Of a stretch of 32,697 nucleotides of DNA, positions 10,296-32,697 are shown piece after piece. The notes beneath the pieces are model-generated. The model ran no database searches. It was not told where the DNA came from and worked only from the letters and a program-made list of their open reading frames with translations. The position numbers and the translations under genes are program-made. Source of the DNA: a virus; the IMG/VR virus record IMGVR_UViG_3300050821_010849, positions 1 to 32,697 of that record. One strand, given 5' to 3'. The number at the start of each line of letters is the position of its first letter. The stretch's first letter is position 1.

Positions 10296-11468
10296 TCACC
10301 ATACAGCTGAGGGAAAACAGAAGTGGGCCCATGTGTGCATGAGCTCGCGACGTTTTTCGAATAGGTCTCCACGGCGGTAGGCTGCTTCGGCTCGGTTGGT
10401 GATCACGTGGGCTAGGACCATCTCTCGGAGTTCACCCGGTGTGTTGGTCTCTTCGCTGCACCAGTCGCTGAAGGTGCTGCGGAAGCCGTGAACGGTTAAT
10501 GATTGGTATCCGAGGCGTCGTAGTAACGCTAAAGTTGTGGTGTCGCCTCGATAGCCTAGGGGGAGTGCCAGAAGCTGCTGGGCGATGTGTTGGGCTTGGG
10601 GCGACAGGGGTATCCGGAACTCGCTTCGCATGGTCCTGCGGCCTTTCATGCGGTTCGCAGGCACGGTCCAAGTTCCACCCTCGAAATTGAATTCGGACGG
10701 GTCCATTTGGCGGATCATGCCAACACGTGCGACTGTCAGGATCACGAATGAGAGTGCGAGAGCAGCTGCGTCGGGATGTTGTTGCAGCTTGGCCATGAAC
10801 GCGGGCAATTCGGGATAGGGTAAGGCGTCAAAGTGCTCGATTTGGTGGATGTCTTTGGGGAGTAGGTTTTCGAGATGACCTTTCCACCTTGCGGGGTTTT
10901 CGCCTTCGCGGTAGCCTTGTGCTCGAGCCCAGTCCAACACGTTTTCGATGCGGCCGCGTATCCTGGTCGCACTCACGTGGTTGAGCAGCCAGATTTTTTC
11001 GAGCGCTCGGATTATTAGCTTAGTGTTGATTTCTTGAACTGGCAGGTTGCCGAGTGTCGGAAATATGTGGCGTTGCAGTGAGCCGACCCACTCTTTTTCA
11101 TGACCTGCGGCGGTCCAGCTATGTCGAAAGGTTTCGACGTATTGCTCGGTAGCCTGTTGGAAGGTGATGAGCTTGGCGCGTTCCAATCGAGCTTGGGTGC
11201 GGACTTCGTTGCGAGCTTCGATAGGGTCAATATCGTTTCGGCGTTTGATGCGGCATTCACGAGCTAGCTCGCGTGCCTCACCTAGGCTGACAGTGTGCAG
11301 CGGACCAAGCCCCATTTCACGTAATCGGTTGTCCACTCGAAAGCGGAACACCCATGATTTGGAGCCTGATGCGCTGACACTGAGATAAAGGCCACCACCA
11401 TCGTTATAGTAGCCACGGCCTTTAGCCTTATTGACCTTCAAGGCGGTCAGTTTGCCGTATGATCTCAT
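10296..11468 (-). CDS. int: Tyrosine recombinase integrase, P4-like
   Basis: Phage integrase (390 residues) for insertion into and probably excision from a host chromosome. Residues 1-75 are a DUF4102-type arm-binding domain (GGGLYLSVSASGSKSW). Residues about 100-195 are the SAM-like core-binding domain, and residues 215-375 the catalytic domain with R248 (TVARVG), K275 (NRMKGRR), H327 and R330 (HGFRSTF), H354 (LAHV) and nucleophile Y364 (AAYRRGD). The usual ARTxE glutamate is replaced by Met (ARVGM), but the catalytic set is complete. The ATG directly follows the upstream TAA. Integrases of this type usually target tRNA genes; no normal tRNA or clear att site is visible in the window. Confidence 0.95.
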   Translation of the reverse strand: MRSYGKLTALKVNKAKGRGYYNDGGGLYLSVSASGSKSWVFRFRVDNRLREMGLGPLHTVSLGEARELARECRIKRRNDIDPIEARNEVRTQARLERAKLITFQQATEQYVETFRHSWTAAGHEKEWVGSLQRHIFPTLGNLPVQEINTKLIIRALEKIWLLNHVSATRIRGRIENVLDWARAQGYREGENPARWKGHLENLLPKDIHQIEHFDALPYPELPAFMAKLQQHPDAAALALSFVILTVARVGMIRQMDPSEFNFEGGTWTVPANRMKGRRTMRSEFRIPLSPQAQHIAQQLLALPLGYRGDTTTLALLRRLGYQSLTVHGFRSTFSDWCSEETNTPGELREMVLAHVITNRAEAAYRRGDLFEKRRELMHTWAHFCFPSAVW

Positions 11469-29147: not shown

Positions 29148-29363
29148 ATGACCCTTAAACAGTTTTTCATTATATCGACGATCGGTATCTGGGCCTTAGT
29201 CGGCATTGCTGGCTACCATGTCTTCATTGATCATGCGCTTACCGTCATGTACGTATGCGCTACACCAGAAAACCATTTGGCTGATCCAGGACCGCCACCG
29301 GGTGTGGCTTCGTCTCATTCTAGACCCGAGATGCCGGTGCCAAAGCCGGAACCGCCGAAGTGA
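29148..29363 (+). CDS. Small membrane protein with proline-rich tail, 71 aa
   Basis: One N-terminal transmembrane helix (FFIISTIGIWALVGIAGYHV) followed by a Pro/His-rich tail (DPGPPPGVASSHSRPEMPVP). It starts 1 nt after the tailspike stop, and its stop overlaps the GTG of the next gene. It could be an inner-membrane or spanin-like component but lacks a coiled coil. No family is recognised. Confidence 0.65.
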   Translation: MTLKQFFIISTIGIWALVGIAGYHVFIDHALTVMYVCATPENHLADPGPPPGVASSHSRPEMPVPKPEPPK

Positions 29364-30028
29364 CTGAGTACACGACCAATATCGATATCTGCAACAAGGC
29401 ATTACAGGAGATCGGGTGCGCCAGGATCACTTCGCTCTCTGGGAGCCGTAATGCAGACGAGTGCGGCTTCCTCTACGACAAGGCCCGGCAGGCGTTGCTT
29501 CGTGAGCATGTTTGGGGTTTCTCGATTGCTTATCAGACATTGGAACTGTCAGGTACGGTTGTTTATCAGAACCAGCTGACCCGCAATAAGTTTAGTCTCC
29601 CCACCGACTTCGTTCGGCTTGCGGATCAGAATCCGCGGCAGCCAAACCAGCTTTCTCAAGCGGTCACAGGCGGTATCAAATCAACCGATTATTCCATTGA
29701 GGGCGGGTACTTGGTGACTAATCTGCCGTCGGTGATATTGCGTTACGCCAGCAACGTGATGGATGTCACTCTAATGGACCCGCTTTTTTGTGATGCCCTG
29801 GCAGCTAAGATGTGCGTCGACGGTCTGGCTGAGATGTTGACCCAAAACATGCAAAAGCGCCAGCTGGCTGAACAGCGCTATGAGGCTCGAATTGCCCTGG
29901 CTAAGATAATTCAGACGATCGAGGCTGCCAGTGACGAACCGATTGAAGAGATGTTGAAGAGTGCTCGGGTACTCGAGCAGCCGCCGCGGCCTCAACCGCA
30001 GCAACAGCAGCAACCACAAGGGAGGTAA
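29360..30028 (+). CDS. Tail tubular protein A-like (gp11-like) adaptor, short form
   Basis: 222 residues starting at GTG 29360, overlapping the previous stop as GTGA. The N-terminus (NIDICNKALQEIGCARITSL, then DECGFLYDKARQALLREHVW) is the gp11/tail tubular A signature: paired helices contacting the portal. The middle has NKFSLPTDFVRLADQN and a late MDPLFCDALAAKMCVD helix. The C-terminus is a Pro/Gln run. It forms the first ring below the portal in T7-like phages. A second homologue follows at 30313. Confidence 0.8.
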   Translation: MTEYTTNIDICNKALQEIGCARITSLSGSRNADECGFLYDKARQALLREHVWGFSIAYQTLELSGTVVYQNQLTRNKFSLPTDFVRLADQNPRQPNQLSQAVTGGIKSTDYSIEGGYLVTNLPSVILRYASNVMDVTLMDPLFCDALAAKMCVDGLAEMLTQNMQKRQLAEQRYEARIALAKIIQTIEAASDEPIEEMLKSARVLEQPPRPQPQQQQQPQGR

Positions 30029-30031
30029 GTG

Positions 30032-30316
30032 ATGAGCAAGATCGGAGATGATCTCATCGAGGGGATGGAGAACGCGGTAGCTCACGCTCGTGATCAAAAG
30101 CCTAGGGTTATCCATGTTCCTGTAAAGGAGGAAGTGATGAAGAGGACACAACCGGTTGCTGCAGCACCGCCAACAAAGGCCAAATTGCCGCCCATCGCCG
30201 ATATCGAGGCGATGATGACGGAGTGGTTTGTTGAAGATCCGACTTGGGCAAAGCAGATATCCGATGATCTTTGGGAGCAGCTTGGTAAATCACGGGCGGG
30301 AATGTTTGATCAATGA
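30032..30316 (+). CDS. Hypothetical protein, 94 aa
   Basis: ATG 30032 has an excellent GGAGGT site. The N-terminal 35 residues (MSKIGDDLIEGMENAVAHAR onward) form a helix like those of small phage or antitoxin-type proteins. A Pro/Ala linker leads to a second helical part (IADIEAMMTEWFVEDPTWAK). An internal GGAGG-like site before ATG 30137 hints at a second, shorter product. It lies between the two tail tubular A-like genes. Confidence 0.65.
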   Translation: MSKIGDDLIEGMENAVAHARDQKPRVIHVPVKEEVMKRTQPVAAAPPTKAKLPPIADIEAMMTEWFVEDPTWAKQISDDLWEQLGKSRAGMFDQ

Positions 30317-31815
30317 GCCAGTATGGAGCTTCGGTCGATATCATCAATCGGGCTCTGCAGATCCTTGAGGTACCCCGTATCCAGACGCTTATGGACTTTT
30401 CTCCTGGAGCGATCGAGGCCGGCTTCCTCTACGACAAGATCCGTCGAGCAATGCTGCGGAGACACGTATGGACGTTTGCTACGCGACGGGCGGCTCTTCG
30501 GCCGGTTGCCACTACTACGGTTCTTTTGTCACCCGCAGCTTGGACGGCCGACATATACGAAGCAGGATCGATTGTATCCTACCAGGGTGTCCTCTACATC
30601 GCGACAATCGAAAATGCGGGTGGGACACCGGGCCAGCCCAGCTCTGGATGGGAGCAGTATTTCGGGCCGCTTACCGTGACGCCGTGGAACATTCCAACCC
30701 CAACGCCACCCCTATTGCAAGCGATTGACGTGAACCCGTACCTCCCACAGACCCCGGTGGGTGTTGGGATTACTCCTTATGGAGCTGGACCAGGGACGGT
30801 CGGGTATCATACAGGGGAGTTGACGTACCTACCGAAAGGCGACGGTACGTATCTGGTTTTCCGAGCTACTATGACAACCGCAAATAGACCTCCGAATATT
30901 CCTTCGTCGACGGTTCAGCCGGCTGGCACCAATGCACCAAACGGCCCGCTGCTTGCTGATCCTTGGGACGCTGGTATTACCTACGCACAGGGCCAGCTGG
31001 CAGCGTTTCCACCTTCGAATCTGTGGCTGTTGGGAATATCGGCAGACAGTGAAGTCTTGGGAGCGCAGGTTTATCAAAGTACGGTGGACCTTAACATCGG
31101 CAATCAGCCTGATCTCGTGCAGTCCGACGCATTGCTTACTTGGAATCCAACCAACCCATATTCTGCAGGAGATCATGCATGGGGCTCAGACAGCCAGGTT
31201 TACCAATGTTTGGTCGCGAACACGGGCCAAGATCCAACGATGGACCAGCTGTTTGCGTACTGGCTGCCAATGACGATGTGGGTTGGTACTTGGACCAATG
31301 TGGTTTCACCAAGCCCGCGGGCCTTCTCGAATGGCTGGCAATATATCGCGGGTACCCTTTCGACGATGCCAATCAACTATCCGATTACGAGTGGCCCGGT
31401 AGACGACACATTGACTTTGAACGCTTACAAATTGCCGGCAAACTGCCTTCGCGAAGCCCCCTCAGATCCAAAGCATGGAAACATCGGATGGTTGGGCGCC
31501 CCGTCAGGTGGCGTCTGGTACGATGACCGTGAGCTTGAGGGCGGCTACATCGTAACACAAGATACCAAGCCTATCATTTATCGTTTTGTAGCGGACATAA
31601 CCGACGTGTTCGCAATGGACGATTTGTTCTGCGAAGCCTTTGCAGCCTCGATCGCTCGAGCAGTCCAGCCAATACTGCAGCCTGAGCGTAACGACTTGTT
31701 CCAGAGGGCCAAGGCTGTCCTCGACGAAACAATGGATGATGCACTTAAGATTAACGCAATCGAAGCCGGTTCTGTCGAGCCTCCAGTGGATGATTTGCTG
31801 ACATGCAGACTATAG
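30313..31815 (+). CDS. Tail tubular protein A-like adaptor with carbohydrate-binding-like insertions
   Basis: 500 residues. The N-terminal 60 (SVDIINRALQILEVPRIQTL, then EAGFLYDKIRRAMLRRHVWT) and the C-terminal region (EGGYIVTQDTKPIIYRFVAD, then DDLFCEAFAASIARAV) match the shorter paralogue at 29360. Between them are insertions of about 300 residues with two segments like CBM5/12 chitin-binding modules: residues 77-118 (YEAGSIVSYQGVLYIATIEN) and 277-320 (YSAGDHAWGSDSQVYQCLVA), and a weaker third near 217-250. ATGA overlap with the gene before. Probably a tail ring component that has gained glycan-binding domains. Confidence 0.8.
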   Translation: MSQYGASVDIINRALQILEVPRIQTLMDFSPGAIEAGFLYDKIRRAMLRRHVWTFATRRAALRPVATTTVLLSPAAWTADIYEAGSIVSYQGVLYIATIENAGGTPGQPSSGWEQYFGPLTVTPWNIPTPTPPLLQAIDVNPYLPQTPVGVGITPYGAGPGTVGYHTGELTYLPKGDGTYLVFRATMTTANRPPNIPSSTVQPAGTNAPNGPLLADPWDAGITYAQGQLAAFPPSNLWLLGISADSEVLGAQVYQSTVDLNIGNQPDLVQSDALLTWNPTNPYSAGDHAWGSDSQVYQCLVANTGQDPTMDQLFAYWLPMTMWVGTWTNVVSPSPRAFSNGWQYIAGTLSTMPINYPITSGPVDDTLTLNAYKLPANCLREAPSDPKHGNIGWLGAPSGGVWYDDRELEGGYIVTQDTKPIIYRFVADITDVFAMDDLFCEAFAASIARAVQPILQPERNDLFQRAKAVLDETMDDALKINAIEAGSVEPPVDDLLTCRL

Positions 31816-31819
31816 GATG

Positions 31820-31896
31820 CACAGGAGAGCGCTCTCCCGGTGAGCTAGACTGCCATAAGGCAGCGTCGGAGTCGAACCAGCTACCTCTCTCCTGTG
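31820..31896 (-). ncRNA. Circularly permuted tRNA-like element
   Basis: Read on the minus strand from 31896: CACAGGAGAG (anticodon-stem side), AGGTA variable loop, T-arm GCTGG-TTCGACT-CCGAC, acceptor 3' side ending CTGCC, tetraloop TTAT, acceptor 5' side GGCAGTC, TA (positions 8-9), D-arm GCTC-ACCGGGA-GAGC, G, CTCTCCTGTG. The order is T-arm, acceptor, D-arm, the reverse of a normal tRNA. The ends form a perfect 10-bp helix (31820-31829 with 31887-31896) continuing the anticodon stem. Invariant bases U8, A14, G18, G19, A21, G53, UUC (54-56), G57, A58 and C61 are present. Weak points: a C-A mismatch in the T stem, an imperfect acceptor, C15/A48 in place of the Levitt pair, and no free CCA end. 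Confidence 0.6.
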
Positions 31897-31906
31897 AGGG
31901 TATTAT

Positions 31907-32697
31907 ATGGCACGTTCCAGCTGGTCGCAAACAAATTTTTTAGGCGGGGAGTGGAGCCCCTCGGCACACGGGCGGCTCGAGCTTCCTGAGTACAAGACTG
32001 CGCTTGATCAAAGCCGTAACGGGATGCCTCAGGAAGAGGGGTCCTGGGTTAGGCGTTCGGGTACTCGTATGTGTGGCCCAACCCCGAACGGTGAGTTTGG
32101 GGTTAACTTCTCTTGGGATATCGCAGGCCAGGCAATCTATGACATCGAGATCTCGGTGTCCGTAGGACAGGGTAGCGTTCTTCGTTTATGGCAAGGAGAT
32201 CAACCTCTCCTGTCTGGGTTCCCGACTACTGTTACTGCCATAACACCTACGTTCCCGGCGGTTCTTACACTTGCTGCACCGGTAACTTGGAGTACCGGGG
32301 ATGTTGTGCTGATCCAAATCGGGGCCGGGATGCTCAACGGCACCACCGATTGGGCCCCCATCCTGAACCGCCAATTGCAAGTTACCGAGATCAACAGTAC
32401 TCACTACAGCATTCCGATTGATGGTTCAACATTCCCTGGAACCCTTCCGGCTGTCGTTCACATTGGCAAGATTGCCGCGTTTAGTGTGCCGCAGTGGACC
32501 ACGGTTGCGCAATTGTTCAATATTTGTCCGCTTATTTCGACATTTAATAACGAGCTTCAGTGCTACTTTTTCTGCCTTGGTGCTCAGCCGGCAGTTTTGA
32601 CATTGACGGTACCCGGTACCTCTACGACATGGCCGTCCTTCTCTGTGACAAATCCGTACTTCCAGGGGCCTTATCAGGAGTTTTCTTTTGATCAGAA
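31907..32697 (+). CDS. Tail protein, 5' part (continues beyond window)
   Basis: 263 codons visible, open to the right edge. Starts MARSSWSQTNFLGGEWSPSA, then LELPEYKTALDQSRNGMPQE, then GSWVRRSGTR: a conserved opening found in long tail/neck proteins of podoviruses after the tail tubular A gene. The rest is beta-rich (VTAITPTFPAVLTLAAPV). GAGGG lies 6 nt before ATG 31907, immediately after the permuted tRNA-like element. Probably a tail tube/nozzle component, the counterpart in position of tail tubular B. Confidence 0.75.
   Translation, partial: MARSSWSQTNFLGGEWSPSAHGRLELPEYKTALDQSRNGMPQEEGSWVRRSGTRMCGPTPNGEFGVNFSWDIAGQAIYDIEISVSVGQGSVLRLWQGDQPLLSGFPTTVTAITPTFPAVLTLAAPVTWSTGDVVLIQIGAGMLNGTTDWAPILNRQLQVTEINSTHYSIPIDGSTFPGTLPAVVHIGKIAAFSVPQWTTVAQLFNICPLISTFNNELQCYFFCLGAQPAVLTLTVPGTSTTWPSFSVTNPYFQGPYQEFSFDQ

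Follow-up and report, generated by a model that had tools for sequence, protein, structure and literature searches.

A minus-strand permuted tRNA-like element between phage tail genes as a candidate Y-RNA-type tRNA mimic without the Ro-binding half

What kind of RNA, if any, is specified by a sequence that lies between two tail genes of a soil phage and reads as a tRNA with its halves exchanged? We examined this question in a window that comprised the whole stretch of DNA analysed (32,697 nucleotides, positions 1 to 32,697 of IMG/VR virus record IMGVR_UViG_3300050821_010849). By gene content this is a temperate, podovirus-like phage; it carries genes for an integrase (10296-11468), a primase, a terminase, a portal-type connector, and head and tail proteins, and the terminase is nearest to those of Rhizobium phages (45% identity). 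The neighbouring tail proteins encoded at 29360-30028 and 30313-31815 on the plus strand both match phrog_394, with an extra region in the second, which suggests a duplication with an insert. A Proteo-phage-1 RNA (RF03044) was also detected in the window at 2528-2613 on the minus strand, with a score of 66.8 bits that exceeds its gathering score.

The element is a 77-nt circularly permuted tRNA that runs from 31896 to 31820 on the minus strand. Its arms follow one another in the order T-arm, acceptor stem with a UUAU tetraloop, and D-arm, and a perfect 10-bp helix joins the two ends. This helix occupies the place of the anticodon stem and continues 5 bp beyond one. On the minus strand, the first half reads CACAGGAGAG AGGTA GCTGG TTCGACT CCGAC GCTGCC TTAT and the second half GGCAGT C TA GCTC ACCGGGA GAGC G CTCTCCTGTG. 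The sequence, strand, coordinates, arm order, TTAT loop and perfect 10-bp helix had all been described in the first-pass annotation, and each of them was confirmed. The element and its surroundings comprise the following features.

31820-31896, minus strand: complete permuted tRNA-like RNA (putative Y-RNA-type tRNA mimic), 77 nt
31887-31896, minus strand: 5' arm of the closing helix, CACAGGAGAG, 10 bp, which prolongs the anticodon-stem position
31882-31886, minus strand: AGGTA, the variable-loop equivalent
31865-31881, minus strand: T-arm, GCTGG TTCGACT CCGAC, with one C-A mismatch and one U-G pair
31849-31864, minus strand: acceptor stem, GCTGCC / GGCAGT, closed by the TTAT tetraloop
31831-31845, minus strand: D-arm, GCTC ACCGGGA GAGC; the TA before it corresponds to positions 8-9
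31820-31829, minus strand: 3' arm of the closing helix, CTCTCCTGTG, 10 bp
31902-31930, minus strand: sigma70-like promoter, TTGCGA (31930-31925), 17 nt, TATAAT (31907-31902)
30313-31815, plus strand: upstream tail gene (phrog_394), which stops 4 nt before the element
31896-31909, plus strand: GAGGG (Shine-Dalgarno-like) and start codon ATG of the tail gene that follows, assigned to phrog_376 by way of relative L003; both abut the element
31816-31906, no strand assigned: intergenic segment of 91 nt, reduced to just 3 nt in four relatives

A short plus-strand frame at 31817-31843 (ATG CAC AGG AGA GCG CTC TCC CGG TGA) enters the element and is in frame with the start of the tail gene 90 nt further on.

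The cloverleaf is not flawless, as the T-stem contains the C-A mismatch and the U-G pair and one acceptor-side C is unpaired. ViennaRNA gave a minimum free energy of -34.0 kcal/mol versus -31.7 kcal/mol for the cloverleaf, the D- and T-arm regions being favoured in another fold. Pair probabilities were about 0.06 for the D-arm and about 0.02 for the T-arm, whereas the outer 10-bp helix and the hairpin of the acceptor reached 0.84-1.0. Poor predicted pairing of the D- and T-arms is common among unmodified tRNA-like sequences. The minus-strand fold was only slightly more stable than shuffled sequences (z -2.05), so that the case for the element is made by tRNA invariants and pairing rather than by stability. 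These invariants are present in the D- and T-loops on the minus strand only. No CCA and no anticodon loop are encoded, and the would-be anticodon bases lie inside the perfect helix. The acceptor is closed by its tetraloop, so the first-pass annotation was correct in stating that there is no free 3' end. Because a free 3' CCA end and an anticodon loop are both missing, charging and decoding would be impossible.

ARAGORN found no ordinary tRNA in the whole 32.7-kb window. With the halves returned to standard tRNA order and CTGTGAG supplied as a 7-nt anticodon loop, ARAGORN called a tRNA-His (gtg), and the raw rotation with its loop unedited was still reported as tRNA-like. We also used a covariance model, R1, trained on 18 permuted modules from other phages and not on the window; because the training modules were chosen for pairing in the closing helix and the acceptor, pair counts in these helices are not independent evidence. 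R1 matched 31892-31824 on the minus strand with 47.8 bits (E 1.2e-13), which is far above chance, since the runner-up place in the window scored 8.9 bits. The rotated call and the R1 score thus uphold the tRNA-like structure proposed earlier. At permissive thresholds, the sole Rfam match in 501 bases around the element was to YrlA (bacterial Y RNA, RF02553), with 25.7 bits and, over the whole window, an E value of 3.9e-5. The alignment spans the whole model; the T-arm, the acceptor and the D-arm all take their expected places, whereas the terminal Ro stem is mostly unpaired. The score falls below the curated gathering threshold (25.7 versus 69). Sub-threshold YrlA matches were also obtained in 13 of 14 control genomes, where they are probably tandem tRNAs; the window, however, carries no tRNAs. 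An origin of the signal in a tandem tRNA array was ruled out, as ARAGORN found no intact tRNA flanking the element or elsewhere in the window, the two halves are base-paired to one another, and the closing helix extends 5 bp past an anticodon stem.

Bacterial Y RNAs are regarded as two-part tethers that have Ro60 at one end and, at the other, a tRNA mimic that holds or gates PNPase. YrlA is a modular RNA. Its tRNA-like domain, which comprises D, T and acceptor arms, undergoes modification by DusA and TruB, and its basal stem binds the Ro60 ortholog Rsr; a link to PNPase is also described (PMC8394870). The structure of a bacterial Y RNA (PDB 6CU1) fits onto tRNA through circular permutation (PMC11472068). 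The element shares this module architecture, and the permuted arrangement noted in the first-pass annotation is thus the signature of an RNA kind already described. An antisense tRNA mimic was among the options of the first-pass annotation and was the right one, although the architecture of the YrlA tRNA-like module went unrecognised there. Judged from its sequence, the identity of the element as a Y-RNA-type permuted module is well supported, with the closed acceptor and the loop invariants in place. Since the Ro60/Rsr-binding terminal stem was looked for and the corresponding model stem was mostly unpaired, the element does not belong under YrlA in the strict sense. The Y-RNA tRNA-like module is already known; what is new is a variant without the Ro-binding half.

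The borders of the element are visible in four relative contigs that share about 91% DNA identity on either side. The gap from stop codon to ATG is 3 nt in these contigs versus 91 nt here, and all four are missing both the element and its -10 box, as a result of either gain here or loss there. The extra stretch contains little beyond the 77-nt RNA and the -10 box, which leaves no room for a Ro stem. No convincing target-site duplication was seen at the borders, and the module was not found elsewhere in the sequence examined of the four relatives. Searches with either neighbouring tail protein returned the same four contigs only, and the Rhizobium and Microcystis phages with a related terminase gave no significant match to the element. 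Phage and plasmid records contained no close DNA relatives, and no close copies were found in IMG/VR by exact pattern; a single copy of the element is known. No TROVE/Ro60 gene was found on the 32.7-kb contig, which is itself a genome fragment.

The putative promoter ends just upstream of the 5' end, and its predicted start, near 31895-31896, coincides with the first or second base of the RNA. It is the one promoter-like site in 900 bases, where shuffled sequences predict 0.5 over both strands. At the corresponding positions the four relatives have TATCTC (TAGCTC in L002) as the -10 and TTGGGT as the -35 sequence. No terminator was found downstream of the element. We infer that the minus-strand RNA is transcribed. 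The element faces late transcription head-on and would be counteracted or silenced by late read-through, so that it is more likely to be expressed early or in the lysogen.

Pattern scans of IMG/VR for a T-arm preceding a D-arm yielded several hundred places among the matches listed, and the counts given here are not population frequencies. Ordinary tandem tRNAs accounted for 252 of 370 places among the matches listed, and 82 had no tRNA on either side. Tandem tRNAs are the false-positive mode of both the search patterns and R1, as exemplified by L329, a tRNA-Gly/tRNA-Thr pair that scored 50.5 bits. We tallied by hand the modules that share a contig with a TROVE/Ro60 gene. Among the matches listed, this was the case for 26 of 36 modules with a conserved outer (Ro-type) stem motif and for 1 of 28 tandem-tRNA control contigs, which indicates that most outer-stem modules are phage Y RNAs. 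The TROVE test therefore led us to reject the idea that the larger group of permuted phage elements represents novel permuted tRNA genes, as they are mostly Y RNAs where the outer stem is conserved. Among the matches listed, TROVE was present on 1 of 12 contigs whose module has an upstream ACAGCAA flank (for example L061:2136+, L120, L215, L203 and L073) and, where no flank type was recognised, on 6 of 22, with 4 of these 6 above the curated cut-off. Four loci checked singly with YrlA, including L068 and L204 from Ro60 contigs, reached just 37-48 bits, under the gathering score of 69, so that a sub-threshold YrlA score appears normal for phage members. ARAGORN and the Rfam gathering scores thus miss many phage RNAs of the Y-RNA type. 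Y-RNA-like loci with a GGTTAC... flank (L068:2350+, L313:49-, L258:7020- on the reverse strand, L133:10045+, L083:1658+ and about 30 more) likewise escape Rfam gathering scores. Many have an intact anticodon-like arm with a CU-NNN-AA loop ahead of the T-arm, and most of their contigs have TROVE/Ro60; these loci combine features of Y RNAs and permuted tRNAs and merit a model of their own.

Permuted modules also occurred on contigs without a TROVE gene. L198 (2816-2946, minus strand) and L209 (2032-2167, plus strand) each have two successive permuted modules between tRNA-Lys and tRNA-Trp, and L082 has one module with a 6-bp helix within an array of 30 tRNAs; TROVE was found on none of these three contigs. 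L198 and L209 are related (70-80% DNA identity), and comparison of their closing helices revealed three two-sided compensatory changes and zero broken pairs. Because the helices covary and the contigs are without TROVE, we conclude that some phages maintain Ro-less permuted modules as RNA structures. L167, which has a 6-bp helix between tRNA-Ala and tRNA-Cys and lacks TROVE on its 265-kb contig, was excluded from the Ro-less count together with L200, as the outer stem seems to be present too.

From these findings, the element is probably a Ro-less tRNA mimic of the Y-RNA type that stands alone, has a promoter of its own and occupies those host proteins that recognise tRNAs by their elbow. A minus-strand noncoding RNA gene would produce the effector module of a Y RNA, closed by 10 bp and without a Ro60-binding stem. 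The D- and T-loops would dock into a tRNA elbow, and the RNA might then occupy host elbow readers, such as modification enzymes of the TruB/DusA type, PNPase, RNases, and defence or toxin enzymes that attack tRNAs. A role as decoy or modulator appears most likely. The tRNA-like domain of YrlA has been proposed as a possible competitive inhibitor of an anticodon nuclease in a study of an RNA-repair operon (PMC7790460), and phages reportedly counter tRNA-attacking defences with tRNAs (PMC11555353, PMC10264068). A stand-alone mimic might fit this logic of phage counter-defence. As many antiphage defences attack tRNAs, a tRNA mimic without a cleavable anticodon loop is a testable form of this idea, and the retention of the mimic end alone, in a minimal helix-closed form, suggests that it has a use of its own. 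More tentatively, the element may belong to a phage class of Ro-independent elbow mimics, Y-RNA-derived or convergent, that are gained and lost as promoter-bearing cassettes and act as decoys against host proteins that bind or attack tRNAs.

It is unlikely that the element is instead a decaying relic, that is, a full Y RNA or a tRNA-derived insert that drifts without function between the tail genes. Its absence from close relatives, the T-stem mismatch, the unpaired acceptor-side base and the YrlA score under the gathering threshold would suit a relic, whereas the perfect 10-bp helix, the intact loop invariants and the fitting promoter would not be expected of one. The integration-related relic suggested by the first-pass annotation is also unlikely, the integrase gene being 20 kb distant. 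We consider it improbable that the structure that matters is a plus-strand mRNA hairpin acting in cis, as an RNase III site or as a regulator of initiation at the tail gene downstream, with the tRNA likeness a mere matter of ancestry. The 10-bp stem does form on that strand, where it abuts the GAGGG ribosome site, but the D- and T-loop invariants belong to the minus strand and would be superfluous in a hairpin, folding of the plus strand does not surpass that of shuffled sequences (z -0.75), and the four relatives manage without the element. Still less probable is a complete Y RNA system in which Ro60 comes from the host or from a phage gene outside the contig and binds through an unrecognised stem; the contig is incomplete and many phage Y RNAs share one with Ro60, but a Ro stem has no space given the positions of the promoter start and the insertion borders, and the terminal stem of YrlA is unmatched. 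Finally, processing of a permuted gene to a functional tRNA-His(GUG), as in algae and archaea and as the first-pass annotation had also entertained, is very improbable, for the ARAGORN call that favours it depends on an anticodon loop obtained by manual removal of three bases (CAC) that lie in the perfect helix, there is no CCA, the acceptor loop is 4 nt, and we know of no bacterial enzyme that splices a permuted tRNA of this kind.

The putative mimic can be set against its closest known systems. It shares with YrlA the order of T-arm, acceptor hairpin and D-arm, the closed acceptor, the loop invariants and a helix at the anticodon-stem position, but differs in the missing Ro-binding terminal stem and internal loop, in its 10-bp closing helix, in its length (77 nt versus 114 model positions), in its sub-threshold score and in a contig without a Ro60 gene. 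Phage Y RNAs on Ro60 contigs (L204, L068) have the same tRNA-like module, which is matched by the same models, but they have an outer stem that bears a GGTTAC-type motif, TROVE on the contig and, in some cases, an anticodon-like hairpin. In algae and archaea, permuted tRNA genes likewise place the 3' half before the 5' half, whereas the element has a long perfect closing helix and no usable anticodon loop, CCA or splice motif. In the modules of L198, L209 and L082, as in the element, nothing separates the closing helix from the tRNA core, no Ro stem is recognised and the contigs are without TROVE; those modules differ in that they lie among tRNA genes on the same strand, rather than singly between tail genes, and have helices of 5-6 bp.
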